Below, piece by piece: positions 2,156 through 10,693 of a DNA stretch of 64,000 nt. Location of the stretch: positions 1-64,000 of the forward strand of contig CALXSE010000005.1 of the NCBI GenBank assembly GCA_944391085.1. The letters are read 5' to 3'. The notes beneath the pieces were generated by a model, which was given only the letters and a program-made list of their open reading frames with translations, made no database searches and was not told the origin of the DNA. Within the stretch, counting starts at the first letter, position 1, and the number at the start of each line of letters is the position of its first letter. The translations under genes and the position numbers were made by a program. This DNA comes from an uncultured Kiritimatiellota bacterium (lineage in GTDB: Bacteria; Verrucomicrobiota; Kiritimatiellia; RFP12; DVOR01).

Positions 2156-2587
2156 TCATTTCCCGATGCTCCTGTGGACGTCCTTGGTATTCTTCGAGAA
2201 GACATCGAAGACTTCTTGGACTTCGCCCTTGTTGTCCACGAAAACCATGACGCTGGTCCGTTCGCTGGTGGGCTTGACGTAGACGTTGCGGTCGGCCAGC
2301 CCGCGGGGATTCAGGATGGGCTCGGTGGTGCGGACGGCATCCATCGCGTAGTCCAATTTCACCAATCTTCGCGCCTGTTCCTCGGGTGATTTTTCCGCGA
2401 GGTGCCGTTCCAAGCGTTCGCCGAAGCGGACGCGCTGGCCTTTGGGGTCGGTGACCTCGGGATGTTTGGCGAGGAGTTCGCGGCCTTCCTCGGCCGTGAC
2501 CTTCCCCGGCGTTTGGTGGTTGGGATGGGTGCAGCGCCCATCCTCGCCGATGAAGGCGCCGTCTTTGGGGCAATGCGTCGCGCTCAT
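2156..2587 (-). CDS. Small phage-remnant protein with zinc-ribbon-like N-terminus
   Basis: 143 residues. The ATG at 2587 overlaps the TGA of the portal gene (ATGA), so translation is coupled. Residues 6-24 contain Cys-x13-Cys-x-His-x2-His (CPKDGAF to CTHPNH), a possible zinc site. The C-terminal half (residues about 75-143: NVYVKPTSERTSVMVFVDNK then GEVQEVFDVF) has the beta-rich look of the Barnase-EndoU-ColicinE5/RelE-like (PBECR) domains found next to Mu-like portal and head genes; that match is tentative. It is probably a leftover of a Mu-type morphogenesis operon. Confidence 0.6.
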   Translation of the reverse strand: MSATHCPKDGAFIGEDGRCTHPNHQTPGKVTAEEGRELLAKHPEVTDPKGQRVRFGERLERHLAEKSPEEQARRLVKLDYAMDAVRTTEPILNPRGLADRNVYVKPTSERTSVMVFVDNKGEVQEVFDVFSKNTKDVHRSIGK

Positions 2588-3954
2588 CGGATTTTCCCTT
2601 CCTCGACCAGCTCGTCGTAGAGGGACTGGACCTCTTCCTGGGTGAGGTGACGGTAGGGGCGGGGCGCTTTGTTGGCGACGGCGGGTTTTTCGGGGGCCGT
2701 GGCGAGGGTGTCGCCGAAGGTCCGGGTGAGGGCCTCCTCGATGGCTGCGGCCATCTCGGGGTCGTCGGGGAGGAGGTCGGGGAGGCGGGCGGCGAGGGCC
2801 TGGGCGACGGTCGGCGAAGGCTCGGCCAGGAGCGCCCGCAGGGCCTCGGCAAGGGGGGCGCAGTCGGTCCGCAGGGCGTCCGCAAGGGCGCCGAGCCCAC
2901 TGTCCGCGGCGGGGGCGCGGTTGGTAATAGGTAAATGGTAATCGGTAAATGGTAAATGGTAATTGGTAAGTGGTGAATGGCCGGCGGCGCCCGGAGAGCC
3001 CGCGCCGAAGGGCGCGGGCCGGGGTGGAGCGCCCTGCGCTCCCGCGGGGTCGAGGGGCTGCGCAAGCCCCTCGCCAAAGCCTCCCCCAAAAGCCCCCGAA
3101 AGCCCTTCGCCCAAACCCTGCCCGTTGGGTTCGAGGCGGAAGCCGGTGCGTTCCTCGAGCTCGTCTTGGGCGACGCGGTAGCCGGCCTGGACGGCCTTGG
3201 CGGCGAGGTCGAAGAGCTCGGCGGGGCCGGGCTCGGGGCGGGTCTGGAAGTCGAAGGCGGCGAGGTGGGGGCGGCCGGGGAAGGCGCGGTCGAGAAGGGC
3301 GTCGGTGACGGTGCGGTTGAGGGCGGTGGCGATGGCGGCGGCGTCGCGGCGGACGATGGCGCGCCAGGTCTCCTCGTGGGCCTGGGTGGCGCCCTGGCCG
3401 ATGCCGGTGGCGCCGGTGAGGGAGGTGAGCATGCCGCCGGTGGCCATGAGGACGACGAGCTGCTGCTGGTGGTCGAGGAACTCCCGGAAGGGGTTGACGC
3501 CGCGGGCCTCTTGGGCGTAGGTGACGACGGAGCCGAAGGGGAGGGCGCCGGAGCCGCCGTCGCTCATCTCGACGGCGCGGGCGCAGAAGGCGTCGACCTG
3601 GGCGGGGTCGATGTCCTGGGGCATGGTGATGAGGACGGGGGGGATGCCGTAGCGCTCGAGGAAGCGGCCCCACTCGCGCTCGCCCAGGCCGTTGCGCAGG
3701 TAGATGGCCAGGGCGGGATAGTCGATGTGGCGGGTGCGCACGAGGGTAACGAGCTCGCCGGGGGGGACGGGCTCGAGGGCGGCGAAGCCGCGGGCGCGGC
3801 CGGCGGCCTTGGGGCGGATGGTCCAGTCGAGGTCGGCCAGGGCGGCGGCGCGGCGCTCGGCGCAGACCATGAGGGTGGGGTCGGCCTGCTCGATGTTCTC
3901 GTAGATCCACTGGAGGCGGACGTCGTTGCCGCGGCGGGCGGCGTCGAAGATCAT
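2584..3954 (-). CDS. Mu-like portal protein (DUF935/gp29 family), 5'-truncated
   Basis: 456 residues from ATG 3954. IFDAARRGNDVRLQWIYENI, QADPTLMVCAERR and LDWTIRP are hallmarks of the Mu gp29/DUF935 portal family, which forms the DNA-entry ring of the phage head. The conserved family sequence continues in frame upstream of the ATG (NLRGLTLRRAQ), but no usable start follows the in-frame TGA further upstream, so the first tens of residues are missing and the gene is probably dead or starts abnormally. The linker near residues 325-345 is encoded by a 7-bp tandem repeat. No terminase, protease or capsid gene adjoins it: this is a remnant, not a prophage. Confidence 0.7.
   Translation of the reverse strand: MIFDAARRGNDVRLQWIYENIEQADPTLMVCAERRAAALADLDWTIRPKAAGRARGFAALEPVPPGELVTLVRTRHIDYPALAIYLRNGLGEREWGRFLERYGIPPVLITMPQDIDPAQVDAFCARAVEMSDGGSGALPFGSVVTYAQEARGVNPFREFLDHQQQLVVLMATGGMLTSLTGATGIGQGATQAHEETWRAIVRRDAAAIATALNRTVTDALLDRAFPGRPHLAAFDFQTRPEPGPAELFDLAAKAVQAGYRVAQDELEERTGFRLEPNGQGLGEGLSGAFGGGFGEGLAQPLDPAGAQGAPPRPAPFGAGSPGAAGHSPLTNYHLPFTDYHLPITNRAPAADSGLGALADALRTDCAPLAEALRALLAEPSPTVAQALAARLPDLLPDDPEMAAAIEEALTRTFGDTLATAPEKPAVANKAPRPYRHLTQEEVQSLYDELVEEGKIR
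2923..2980. repeat. Heptanucleotide tandem repeat (about 8 copies) inside the portal gene
   Basis: On the plus strand eight successive 7-mers of the form GGTAANN (GGTAATA, GGTAAAT, GGTAATC, GGTAAAT, GGTAAAT, GGTAATT, GGTAAGT, GGTGAAT) end in GG. The coding strand reads (TTACCNN)n. Because 7 is not a multiple of 3, three copies encode one 7-residue protein period (NYHLPFT, DYHLPIT), and any change of copy number shifts the reading frame of the portal gene. It is AT-rich in very GC-rich surroundings. Confidence 0.9.
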
Positions 3955-6593: not shown

Positions 6594-7745
6594 TCAGCGC
6601 GCCAGGCGGATGCCGCGGCGGCGGTAGGTGGGCTCGTCAAGGTTCTGCCCGTTGACGATGGTGGGGCTGACGTCGGAAAAACGGCTTTTCGCGGCGCGGA
6701 GGAGGCCGCTGCCGGTGTTGCGCGTGCCCCGGCCCTTCTTGGCGGAGAGGGGGCGCGGCGCCTCTGCGCCGATCTGGGCGGCCTCGGCGACGGGGAGCCC
6801 AAAGGCCAGGACGACGACGGAGAGGGCGCCCGCGCGGGAATCCTCGACGGACGTCCCCAGGAAGGTCTCCTTCAGCGCCTGGCAGTGGGCGCGGAGCCCG
6901 TCCATGAGGGTGGAGAGCTCGCAGAGGCGCAGATCCGGCCCGGCCAGGACGCCGACGATGAGCTGTGCGGCGCTGGCCAGGCGGTCCAGGTTCTCCACGC
7001 GGAGGCGCGGGTCGCCCTTGAGCGCGGCCAGGGCGGCCTCGGCGCGGCCCTCGCCGGAGCAGGTGGCGTCGGCGAAGCAGAAGGGCAGCCCGCCGGCGAC
7101 GGCGTTGGCGAGCAGGGCGCGGAAGCGCTCGGCGTCGAAGGCGATGAAGCCGGGGTGGGCCACGAGCGTCCAGAGCAGGCCCAGGCCGGCGGCCAGGCGG
7201 TCCGCGGCGCGGGCGAAGGCCTCGGCGGCGGGGAGGGCGGCCGCGTCGGCGCCGACGAGCGCGTCGAGGGGGATCTTGGCCAGGGCGTCGGCGCGGGCCT
7301 CGACGTCCGGGAGGAGGACGGCGGCGCAGCGGCGCCGGTCGGTTCCCTCGAAGGCGAAGGGGAGCGTGGCGAAGACGAGGGTGGCGACGCCCCGGGCGCG
7401 GAGGGCCTCGAGGAGATCCCGCGCGGCCCCGGCGGTGCCGCCGCCGCAGGAGATCAGGAGGACGGCCAGGCGCGGGGAGCCGATTTGGGCGAGGATCTGC
7501 GCCGCGTCGTCGCGGAAGGCGCCCGCGCCGAGGGTGTGGTCGCCGCCGGTGCCGCGGCCGGCCAGGCGCTTGGCGCCGAAGACGGACGTGGAGAGGCCGA
7601 CGGCGGGCGTGAGGGCCGCGAGGGTGGCGTCGTCGGTGTCGAGGATGAGGGCGCGCAGGGGGGCGGTGGCGCGCTCGGCCACGCGGCGGGCGACGGTCGC
7701 CGCCGCGCCGCCGAGGGAGATGAGCAGGAGGTCTTCGGTGTCCAT
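6594..7745 (-). CDS. ftsZ: Divergent FtsZ-like tubulin homologue
   Basis: 383 residues in ftsZ position after ftsQ and ftsA. The fold is recognisable throughout: DTDDATL at 36-42 (canonical NTDAQ-L), CGGGTAGAA at 100-108 (GGGTGTG tubulin signature), ATLPFAFEG at 126-134 (T-KPF-FEG), SGEGRAEAAL at 230-239, and a C-terminal tail NLDEPTYRRRG like the FtsA-binding peptide. Several nucleotide residues differ: the P-loop-like start is GGAAAT rather than GGGGGN, and the T7 catalytic motif N-x-D-x-x-D reads A202-F-D204-A-E-R207. It may polymerise with weak or no GTP hydrolysis. Function in division is inferred from synteny. Confidence 0.85.
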   Translation of the reverse strand: MDTEDLLLISLGGAAATVARRVAERATAPLRALILDTDDATLAALTPAVGLSTSVFGAKRLAGRGTGGDHTLGAGAFRDDAAQILAQIGSPRLAVLLISCGGGTAGAARDLLEALRARGVATLVFATLPFAFEGTDRRRCAAVLLPDVEARADALAKIPLDALVGADAAALPAAEAFARAADRLAAGLGLLWTLVAHPGFIAFDAERFRALLANAVAGGLPFCFADATCSGEGRAEAALAALKGDPRLRVENLDRLASAAQLIVGVLAGPDLRLCELSTLMDGLRAHCQALKETFLGTSVEDSRAGALSVVVLAFGLPVAEAAQIGAEAPRPLSAKKGRGTRNTGSGLLRAAKSRFSDVSPTIVNGQNLDEPTYRRRGIRLAR

Positions 7746-7748
7746 GGG

Positions 7749-8942
7749 TCAGCCCTTGAGGAAGGCGCGGAAACGGGCGAAGAGGGTGGGGCGGCGGGTC
7801 TCTTGCGCGAGGACGCGGCGCCGCCAGTTGAGCAGGCCCACGGCGGTGGCGTGGCGGTAGGGCTCCTCGGTCATCTCCGGGGGAAGCCTGGCGACGTTGC
7901 AGGGCACGCCCAGCACGCAGGGGAGGCCGAAGATGGCGGCGGCCTGCTCGGCGATGAGGGGAAGGGCGGCGGTGCCGCCGGTGAGGTGGATGGCGCCGCG
8001 GATGTGGGGGAGGACGTCGCGCAGGGCCTCGCGCAGGATGCGGAAGGTCTCGTCGACGCGCTCGGTGGTGACGGTCTGGATGGCGTGCACCGAGAGGGCG
8101 CGGTCGCCGGTGGAGAAGGGGGTGCGCAGGGCGTAGCGGTCGCCGGCGAGGTCGGGCTGGATCTGGGCGGCGCCGCGCGCGAGCTTGACTTCTTCGGCCT
8201 GGGTCTGGAGGATCTGGAAGGCGAGGGCCAGGTCGTTGGTCAGGTGGCCGCCGCCGACGCCGAGATTGCCCGCGGCGGCGACGACGCCGTTGCAGACGGC
8301 CAGGTAATCCACCGTGCCGGCGCCGAAGTCGAGCACCAGCGCGCCGTCGTTGCGGGCCTTGGCGTCGAGGACGGCCTCGGCGGCGGCGAAGCCGGAGAAG
8401 ACGGTCTCGTTGAGGCGCAGCCCGGCGCGGTGGACGGCGGAGGTCAGGGCGTCGAGCTCGGTGCGCGGGACGGAGAGCTCGAGGATGTTGGCCACGAGCT
8501 CGGAGCCGGTCATGCCCAGGGGGGTGCCGACGGGCTGGCCGTTGACCTCGTATTTCTGGCGGAAGCGCTGGAGGACGATCTCGGTGGCGTCCGGCGACTC
8601 GACGGATTGGGCGTTTTCCTCGGCGGCGTCGACGTCGTCCTGGTCGATGGCATGGCCGGGCATGAGCAGGGTGTGGCCGGCGTGGACGGCGGAGGCGAGG
8701 CCGAAGCAGGAGAGCGAGGCCGTGACGTCCGCCAGGTCGATGTGGTGGAGGCGATCCATGTCGTCGCGCACCTTGCGGACGCCGGCGGTGACGGCGTTGA
8801 TGTCGTGGATGAGGCCTTTGCGGACGCCGGCGGTGGGGGTCTCGGTGCGCGCGAGGACGCTCAGCGCGCCGCCTTCGCACTCGCCGGCCACCAGGCTGGT
8901 CGTCTGCGTGCCGATGTCCAATGCGCCCAGGAGGATGCCCAT
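7749..8942 (-). CDS. ftsA: Cell division protein FtsA
   Basis: 397 residues, actin/HSP70-fold membrane tether for FtsZ. ALDIGTQTTSLVAGE at the N-terminus is the phosphate-1 loop; VLDFGAGTVDYLA is phosphate 2; LTGGTAALP is the adenosine motif. The 1C subdomain region (IHDINAVTAGVRKVRDDM) is present. The C-terminus RPTLFARFRAFLKG can form the amphipathic membrane-targeting helix. The gene lies 3 bp before ftsZ and 10 bp after ftsQ. Unlike its partner FtsZ it looks conventional. Confidence 0.92.
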   Translation of the reverse strand: MGILLGALDIGTQTTSLVAGECEGGALSVLARTETPTAGVRKGLIHDINAVTAGVRKVRDDMDRLHHIDLADVTASLSCFGLASAVHAGHTLLMPGHAIDQDDVDAAEENAQSVESPDATEIVLQRFRQKYEVNGQPVGTPLGMTGSELVANILELSVPRTELDALTSAVHRAGLRLNETVFSGFAAAEAVLDAKARNDGALVLDFGAGTVDYLAVCNGVVAAAGNLGVGGGHLTNDLALAFQILQTQAEEVKLARGAAQIQPDLAGDRYALRTPFSTGDRALSVHAIQTVTTERVDETFRILREALRDVLPHIRGAIHLTGGTAALPLIAEQAAAIFGLPCVLGVPCNVARLPPEMTEEPYRHATAVGLLNWRRRVLAQETRRPTLFARFRAFLKG

Positions 8943-8952
8943 GTCGTTCCTT

Positions 8953-9804
8953 TCAGTCCGAGACGGTGACGGCGTCGGCCGCCATCGCGTTGAAGTGCCG
9001 CTTGCCGGCCAGGTGGGGGTTGCGCAGGGCCATGGCCACGTTGGTCAGGCGGCGGTACATCCCCTCCTGGGGCGCCTCCTCGCCGGCCATGCCGGGCCAG
9101 GCGATGACGATGCGCCGCCCGTCGCCCAGTGTCATGACAAGGCCGTCGTCGGCGTCGGTGTAAAGGAAGGAGACGGCGCGCACGTCCCCGGGCAGGCGGT
9201 AGTCCTCCGAGGCCGCGGCGGCGATGAGGTGGAGCATGCAGCGGGTCTGCGGCGGCAGGCGGTGCCCCGGCGCCAGGTCGCTCGCGGGCAGGTCGAAGCC
9301 GCCGATCGTGGGCAGGTCGCCATATGACCGTGCGCCGCGCAGGCAGACGCCCTCCTCGTCCACCACGAAGAGGGGTGCGGATTGGAGCCTGGCGATGGGG
9401 GTGCGCTCCTCCACCCACAGTTCCAGCGAGCGGCCCGGCTGGAAGGTCATCTCGGCGTTGCGGATGCGCGGGTCTTGGGTGTGGAGGCGCGCGACGATGT
9501 CCGAGCGCATCACCTCGAAGCCGTTCCGCTCGGCGTCTAGGCCGAAGTTCAGGAGCACCTCCTCGCGCGTCAGCGTGGTGCCGCCGCGCACGACGATTTC
9601 CTCCGGGCGCACGAGGAAGGCCCCGTTGCCGAAGTAGTAACGGGCCCGGAAGAGGCAGAAGAGCGCCGCGGCCGCCCCGATCACCAGCAGGGGGAAGAGC
9701 AGGCGCAACAGGCGCGGGCCCACGCTCCCGGCCACGGCGGCGACCGCCCCGGCCATGGGGCCCGGCTTGGCTTTTTTGCGGCGTTTGGGGGCGCGCTCAG
9801 TCAT
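8953..9804 (-). CDS. ftsQ: Cell division protein FtsQ
   Basis: 283 residues. A basic cytoplasmic N-terminus (KRRKKAKPG) precedes one membrane helix (about 33-52, LLRLLFPLLVIGAAAALFCL), then a POTRA domain (FLVRPEEIVVRGGTTLTREEV) and the FtsQ beta domain (LELWVEERTPIARL, LFVVDEEGVCL). FtsQ bridges early and late divisome proteins in the periplasm. The start overlaps the end of ddl by 8 bp. The order ddl-ftsQ-ftsA-ftsZ is that of the conserved dcw cluster; murB and murC are not here. Confidence 0.9.
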   Translation of the reverse strand: MTERAPKRRKKAKPGPMAGAVAAVAGSVGPRLLRLLFPLLVIGAAAALFCLFRARYYFGNGAFLVRPEEIVVRGGTTLTREEVLLNFGLDAERNGFEVMRSDIVARLHTQDPRIRNAEMTFQPGRSLELWVEERTPIARLQSAPLFVVDEEGVCLRGARSYGDLPTIGGFDLPASDLAPGHRLPPQTRCMLHLIAAAASEDYRLPGDVRAVSFLYTDADDGLVMTLGDGRRIVIAWPGMAGEEAPQEGMYRRLTNVAMALRNPHLAGKRHFNAMAADAVTVSD

Positions 9805-10693
9805 GCGTGGCGGCCTCCACGAGCCGTGCGCACAGCTCCGGGAAGGGGATGCCCGCGCGGGCCGCGGCGTCCGGGAGCAGGCTGGTGCCCGTGCACCCCG
9901 GCGAGGTGTTCACCTCCAGCGCGAAGAGCCCGCCCTCCGGCGAGAGGCGGAAGTCCACGCGCACCGCCCCGCGGCACCCCGTGGCCACGGCGGCGGCCAC
10001 GGCCAGGCGCCGGGCCTCGCGCGTCAGGGCGTCCTCGGCCGGGAAGAGGTGGCGCGAGACGCCCGGCGCGTACTTGGCGCGGTAGTCGTACCATCCGTCC
10101 GGCGCGACGATCTCGAGCACCGGCAGGGCCTGGCCGCAGAGTACGCCCACGGCCCATTCGCGCCCCGGGATGAAACGCTCCACGAGCGCCTCCCCCCTGG
10201 CGTCCTGCGCCGCGGCCAGGCGCACGGCGCCGGCCCATTGCCCCGGCTCCGTCACCTTCGAGAGGCCCACGCTCGAGCCGTCGCGCGGCGGCTTGACGAC
10301 GAGCGGCAGGGGTAGCGGCGGGGGGAAGTCCGCGGCGGCGGCGGTGAGGATGGCGCCCTCGGGCGTCGGCACGTGGGCCTTGCGCAGGGCGGCCTTCGCC
10401 GCCGGCTTGTCCATGCACAGGCGGCTGGCGGCCGCGCCAGGCCCGGTGTAGGGGAGGCCCGCGGCGTCGAGGTCGGCCTGGAAGCCGCCGTTTTCGCCGT
10501 ACCCGCCGTGCAGGGCGTTGAAGACGGCGTCCACCCCGCGCGGGAGCTCCTCGATGGAGTCCTTCGTCAGGCGCGCCTCGAGGACGTCGTACCCGGCCTT
10601 GCGCAGGGCCTCGGCCACCGCCGCGCCCGAGCGCAGCGAGACCTCCGCCTCATGGCTTGTGCCGCCCATCGCCACCGCAATCCGCTTCTTCAT
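9797..10693 (-). CDS. ddl: D-alanine--D-alanine ligase
   Basis: 298 residues, cytoplasmic ATP-grasp enzyme that joins two D-Ala for peptidoglycan. MGGTSHEAEVSLRSG is the N-terminal motif, ALHGGYGENGGFQ the substrate loop, VVKPPRDGSSVGLSKV the ATP-binding strand, and LEVNTSPGCTGTSLLPDAA the Mg/ATP site. AAGG is 8-11 bases upstream of the ATG. It is the first gene of the minus-strand operon running to recJ, facing away from the nucleotidyltransferase gene. Confidence 0.95.
   Translation of the reverse strand: MKKRIAVAMGGTSHEAEVSLRSGAAVAEALRKAGYDVLEARLTKDSIEELPRGVDAVFNALHGGYGENGGFQADLDAAGLPYTGPGAAASRLCMDKPAAKAALRKAHVPTPEGAILTAAAADFPPPLPLPLVVKPPRDGSSVGLSKVTEPGQWAGAVRLAAAQDARGEALVERFIPGREWAVGVLCGQALPVLEIVAPDGWYDYRAKYAPGVSRHLFPAEDALTREARRLAVAAAVATGCRGAVRVDFRLSPEGGLFALEVNTSPGCTGTSLLPDAAARAGIPFPELCARLVEAATHD

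Follow-up and report, generated by a model that had tools for sequence, protein, structure and literature searches.

This locus raises the question of how FtsZ can serve cell division when residues that bind and hydrolyse its nucleotide have been replaced. The window, by which we mean the whole 64,000-nucleotide stretch analysed here, comes from an uncultured Kiritimatiellota bacterium and carries the gene within a dcw cluster. The following features define the gene and its surroundings:

7745..6594, minus strand: ftsZ, an intact ORF of 383 amino acids plus stop with its ATG at 7745, assigned by PF00091 and the AlphaFold2 fold, with a TIGR00065 match below cut-off; its strand is not mentioned in the sequence-only reading.
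7749..8942, minus strand: ftsA, 397 amino acids, 3 nt upstream of ftsZ; TIGR01174 at 200 bits (cut-off 175.85).
8953..9804, minus strand: ftsQ; PF08478 POTRA_1 at 23.4 bits (cut-off 23).
9797..10693, minus strand: ddl, D-Ala-D-Ala ligase; NF002378 at 305 bits (cut-off 243).
6612..6641, minus strand: C-terminal FtsA-binding-like peptide LDEPTYRRRG (amino acids 369-378), conserved through the order.

The 383-residue product is FtsZ by orthology, as profile, synteny, fold and tail agree. It matches the tubulin/FtsZ GTPase-domain profile PF00091 at 47.3 bits (cut-off 33), the dcw order ddl-ftsQ-ftsA-ftsZ is present with all four genes on the minus strand, ftsA lies at the same loci in congeners, and the FtsA/ZipA-binding C-terminal peptide of an FtsZ orthologue, to which the sequence-only reading had drawn attention, is there. 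The FtsZ equivalog model TIGR00065 gives 71 bits, below its cut-off of 295.2; an FtsZ match was found in 373 of the 384 genomes of the phylum and this model is ill-suited to them, as only 35 pass its cut-off. The nearest named records, from uncultured Kiritimatiellaeota MAGs, are 92, 73 and 69% identical. An AlphaFold2 model built from seven sequences (mean pLDDT 77, pTM 0.75) has the two-domain FtsZ fold, and the best 50 PDB matches listed are all FtsZ, with TM-scores up to 0.71 (query) and 0.89 (target). In the model D204 ends T7 and R207 falls within H8, but the alignment was too shallow for loop geometry to be taken from this prediction.

The nucleotide site is a mixture of replaced and retained residues:

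7695..7712, minus strand: T1 loop GGAAAT (amino acids 12-17) in place of GGGGGN; GGAAA in 15/15 genus sequences and 0/208 others.
7632..7640, minus strand: T2 loop D36-T37-D38, placed by alignment; N43 is replaced by D36, and D38, equivalent to the Mg-site residue D46 of S. aureus (role from PMC8936486), is kept.
7425..7445, minus strand: T4 tubulin signature GGGT-AGA (amino acids 101-107), which lacks one residue of GGGTGTG; all 15 genus sequences and none of the 208 others have this gap, at E. coli G109.
7335..7349, minus strand: T5/H5 E133 (the ribose Glu) and R137 (S. aureus R143, Arg-finger-like), both kept; Glu in 223/223, R137 in 15/15 of the genus.
7266..7268, minus strand: T6 L160 in place of the guanine-contact N165; Leu in 15/15 of the genus, Asn in 88/94 sequences from elsewhere in the class and 73/74 from the remaining phylum.
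7203..7205, minus strand: H7 A181 in place of the guanine-contact Asn/Asp (E. coli N186, S. aureus D187); Ala in 14/15 of the genus, Asp or Asn in 73/94 of the rest of the class and 69/74 of the rest of the phylum.
7125..7142, minus strand: T7 loop A202-F-D204-A-E-R207 in place of N-x-D-x-x-D, placed by ungapped alignment with E. coli and by the hydrophobic register of H8.

In the T7 region E. coli GLMNVDFADVR aligns without gaps with GFIAFDAERFR, so that N207 becomes A202, D209 is kept as D204 and D212 becomes R207. This register is supported by H8, where hydrophobic F208, L211 and L212 match E. coli V213, V216 and M217. AFDAER thus keeps one of the three residues of NxDxxD. The guanine-contact positions of E. 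coli N24, N165 and N186, whose roles we take in part from general knowledge, carry T17, L160 and A181 instead, replacements that the sequence-only reading had not noted. The T1 and T7 changes lie exactly where the sequence-only reading had placed them; it had also seen GGGTAGA in T4, which falls one residue short of the GGGTG[ST]G signature and is better read as a single-residue deletion than as substitutions. Retained are D38 (S. aureus D46), E133 (E139), R137 (R143), F177 (F183) and the glycines of T3, and D204, D38, E133 and R137 are invariant across the 15 aligned genus sequences. Judged by its residues, the protein is not a canonical GTPase under the catalytic-motif definition.

Work on S. 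aureus filaments gives these residues their probable meaning. There the catalytic water is positioned by a swing of D210 (D204 here) and held by D213 (R207), which also forms a bridge to R143, and N208 (A202) is a K+ ligand that touches the Mg sphere; each of the mutations N208L, D210N and D213N blocked assembly in vitro (PMC8936486). Guanine contact has been described for N25 and loop T6 (PMC8936486) and by docking (PMC10020519).

We aligned 223 FtsZ sequences from the window’s GTDB phylum, a few per family: 15 from the genus, 40 from the rest of the order, 94 from the rest of the class and 74 from the rest of the phylum. The sample was not random, and as its coordinates came mainly from better-scoring hits, canonical sites will have been over-counted, if anything. 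The equivalents of N207 and D212 were replaced in all 15 genus sequences. Both T7 acids were present in 0/15 of the genus, 0/40 of the rest of the order, 45/94 of the rest of the class and 8/74 of the rest of the phylum, and the full NxDxxD motif in only 29 of the 223. Outside the phylum this motif is near-universal, a statement based on PMC8936486 and two aligned sequences (E. coli and SAR86). The N165 equivalent was lost throughout the genus and in 26 of the 40 other sequences of the order. The combination of GGAAA and a short T4, found in every genus sequence and in no other, puts the changes beyond chance or assembly error. Comparison with relatives therefore bore out the losses that the sequence-only reading had described, but not as a peculiarity of this genome, as the second T7 acid is missing throughout the order and has been lost repeatedly in the phylum.

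The families f54 (G251, G271, G325, G410, G487, G489) and f63/f64 are represented by near-complete genomes, several of them single-contig, whose sole FtsZ mostly matches the FtsZ profile weakly (many at E 1e-4 to 1e-22) and is as divergent as that of the window or more so. Some genomes of the phylum, G250 and G258 (f59), G355 (f76), G132 (f21), and G172 and G188 (f35), had two FtsZ-type matches each.

The losses across the phylum follow a pattern. D209 or D212 was kept in 217 of the 223 sequences, with both acids in 53, only D209 in 121, only D212 in 43 and neither in six. The window’s order mostly has xDxxR/T/H, having lost D212 together with guanine contacts, whereas the clade of f53, f61 and their allies has lost D209 instead (xGxxD); its counterpart in f55, f50, f68 and f71 is NxDxxT/A/S. 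Parsimony on a phylum tree from which the T7 and T2 columns had been left out counted 18 changes for D212, 19 for D209 and 28 for N207. Pagel’s test found the losses of D209 and D212 to be negatively dependent (LR 18.2, p=0.0011; p=0.0027 with the root fixed to both acids). The result held with the f53-type clade (p=0.02), the window’s order (p=0.0064) or the longest branches (p=0.0016) removed. Simulations of independent loss at similar marginal rates left a mean of 26 sequences with neither acid against the six observed, and none of 131 runs went that low. This was one of five pairs tested, so that a five-fold correction gives p of about 0.006; the other four pairs were not significant. As the test is sensitive to large single clades, we regard the evidence for the one-acid pattern as good but not final. 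Changes in T2 (N43D, Q47x), considered as compensation for the T7 loss, had strong raw counts but were not significant once the tree was modelled.

The six sequences with no acid at either catalytic T7 position are L007, L021, L024, L055, L162 and L166, and in all but L055 the T7 segment contains no acid at all. By their residues, they are more likely than the FtsZ of the window to be non-hydrolysing.

The sequence-only reading had suggested that a second FtsZ might exist elsewhere, in which case the window gene would be a divergent paralogue of a canonical one. Searching the whole genome (1.73 Mb) found one PF00091 gene and no match to the FtsZ-like Tubulin_2 (PF13809). The genome is 88.9% complete, which leaves a gap in which a copy could lie, but the congeners make this hardly credible: an FtsZ match was found at a lax threshold in 16 of the 17 genus genomes, eight of them 92-95% complete, always as a single gene (which in G008 seems to be divided between the ends of two contigs) and never over the TIGR00065 cut-off. 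G001 had no match at this threshold. The gene could instead be relaxed and decaying towards FtsZ-independent division, as in the two sister phyla that have lost ftsZ, Planctomycetota and Chlamydiota (PMC12283558). Its long branch and weak TIGR00065 score fit this idea, as does the repeated loss of active-site residues in the phylum. However, the ORF is intact, the operon and tail are kept, a single copy persists in almost every genus genome, and ftsZ is essential in a remote relative, V. spinosum (PMC12283558). The gene is also under purifying selection: NG86 dN/dS was 0.08-0.11 in three well-diverged congener pairs (L040/L041, L050/L051, L049/L041), while ftsA, measurable in two pairs, gave 0.055-0.061, so that ftsZ is constrained, slightly less than ftsA. 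Raw values of 0.39-0.65 for the window gene against L033-L035 were given no weight, as ftsA behaved alike in the same pairs and NG86 is poorly suited to these GC-rich genomes. We therefore consider decay very improbable.

The gene product might be a non-hydrolysing scaffold, binding nucleotide or none and forming static filaments, with FtsA and the septal synthases doing the work. This was the other suggestion of the sequence-only reading, and the residue losses on which it rested hold. In its favour, the N207 and D212 equivalents are gone, T1, T4 and the guanine contacts are altered, E. coli D212G has static rings with very low GTPase activity (PMC7320174), and six relatives have neither catalytic T7 acid. 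The invariance of D204, R137 and D38 in the genus and the one-acid pattern of the phylum weaken it, and we think a scaffold possible but unlikely. At the other extreme, the site may have been rewired into a fully active GTPase, with E206 or an altered geometry taking over the role of the lost Asp. E206 stands beside R207 in 15/15 genus sequences, and 17 of the 40 other sequences of the order have Glu at this position. As a replacement acid, though, E206 had to be rejected. It is not conserved in families f2 and f5, where Ala at 211 is followed by a basic residue at 212 (DPARL, DPAHL), so that the Glu is not needed, and the register of H8 bars it from replacing D212. A compensating change at N43 or Q47 was not upheld on the tree either, making a fully active site improbable.

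It seems probable, rather, that this is the organism’s sole working division FtsZ, with a site that is slow and perhaps less specific for GTP. As the only FtsZ, it would still build the division ring, which FtsA would tether to the membrane through the retained C-terminal peptide. Its nucleotide site would have degenerated stepwise, the order losing its second T7 acid, for the most part also the T7 Asn, and in the majority of families the guanine contacts; in a later step the genus alone would also have changed T1 and shortened T4. Filaments would be expected to form on nucleotide, with slow hydrolysis and slow turnover, and their preference for GTP over other NTPs may be poor. The K+ ligand and second Asp are lost, but the Asp that positions the water, the Asp of the Mg site and the Arg are kept, which suggests slow rather than absent hydrolysis; the loss of the guanine contacts suggests weaker base choice. 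That one T7 acid is nearly always kept across the phylum speaks for catalysis having been retained to some degree.

Engineered E. coli FtsZ with the same catalytic position replaced shows that slow hydrolysis need not preclude a ring. D212A retains 7% of the GTPase activity (cited in PMC8142252), D212G lowers it about tenfold and gives static rings (PMC7320174), and D212A filaments still localise to constriction sites when co-expressed with wild type (PMC4383033). Unlike these point mutants, in which the rest of the protein is canonical, the state seen here is natural and fixed in a whole order. Some points count against a slow but working site. Six relatives lack an acid at either catalytic T7 position, and since the window FtsZ lacks two of the three residues whose mutation blocked S. 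aureus assembly (PMC8936486), its assembly might fail or be independent of nucleotide. A further, distinctly doubtful reading is that the division ring of the genus no longer depends on GTP and is powered by a different NTP, or by any of them, through one catalytic acid. This is suggested by the changes in all three guanine contacts, T1 and T4, with the ribose, Mg and gamma-phosphate residues kept.

The picture of a slow, sole FtsZ can be set against better-characterised systems. The protein resembles canonical FtsZ (E. coli, S. aureus) in its fold, its dcw place after ftsA, its FtsA peptide and the retained equivalents of D209, D45, R142 and E138, and differs in residues of T1, T4, T6, H7 and T7. 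It scores about 75 bits against E. coli FtsZ, a comparison in which the archaeal FtsZ of M. jannaschii gives 284. In beta-tubulin, T7 has a Lys where alpha-tubulin has its catalytic Glu, and this is linked to non-hydrolysis. The window FtsZ likewise has a basic residue at the corresponding position but, unlike the tubulin heterodimer with its Glu kept in alpha, forms a system with a single subunit only. A natural FtsZ with low GTPase activity is found in Ca. Thiosymbion oneisti (PMC8953583). Closer relatives, the Verrucomicrobiota Prosthecobacter, Methylacidiphilum and V. spinosum, share the fast evolution of FtsZ, which is phylum-wide, and the sequence-only reading was right to link this gene with divergent FtsZ in the PVC superphylum.

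Fast or divergent FtsZ in Verrucomicrobiota is already published, in reports that call it the most divergent in bacteria; a residue-level account was not found in these papers, and in one a reviewer remarks that Lentisphaera FtsZ is non-functional (PMC9871819; PMC2474590 for the remark). In the literature searched we found no account of phylum-wide T7 residue losses or of the one-acid pattern, and as Pilhofer 2008 and Spring 2016 might contain one, we claim novelty for both only provisionally. The need of FtsZ for GTP hydrolysis and treadmilling in division has been studied mainly with point mutants. Here is a natural case: an entire order has shed its second T7 acid and most guanine contacts in the course of evolution, one of its genera has additionally reshaped T1 and T4, and no backup gene was found in the organism’s own genome or its congeners. 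In the phylum either catalytic Asp can be lost, but the loss of both is very rare; this suggests that a single acid suffices and opens the minimal FtsZ active site to direct tests. The case may also show intermediate states towards the FtsZ-free division of Planctomycetota and Chlamydiota.

Two further observations concern the genus and the locus. No MinC C-terminal domain was found in any of the 17 genus genomes, and division-site placement thus proceeds without a recognisable MinC. About 2.6 kb from ftsZ, an ORF at 2584-3954 on the minus strand matches the C-terminal portion of the portal protein of Mu-type phages (PF06074, 104 bits) and marks a prophage or prophage remnant. It contains about eight copies of the 7-base unit TGGTAAA at 2922-2980, and as the unit is not divisible by three, the array could vary the reading frame of this ORF.
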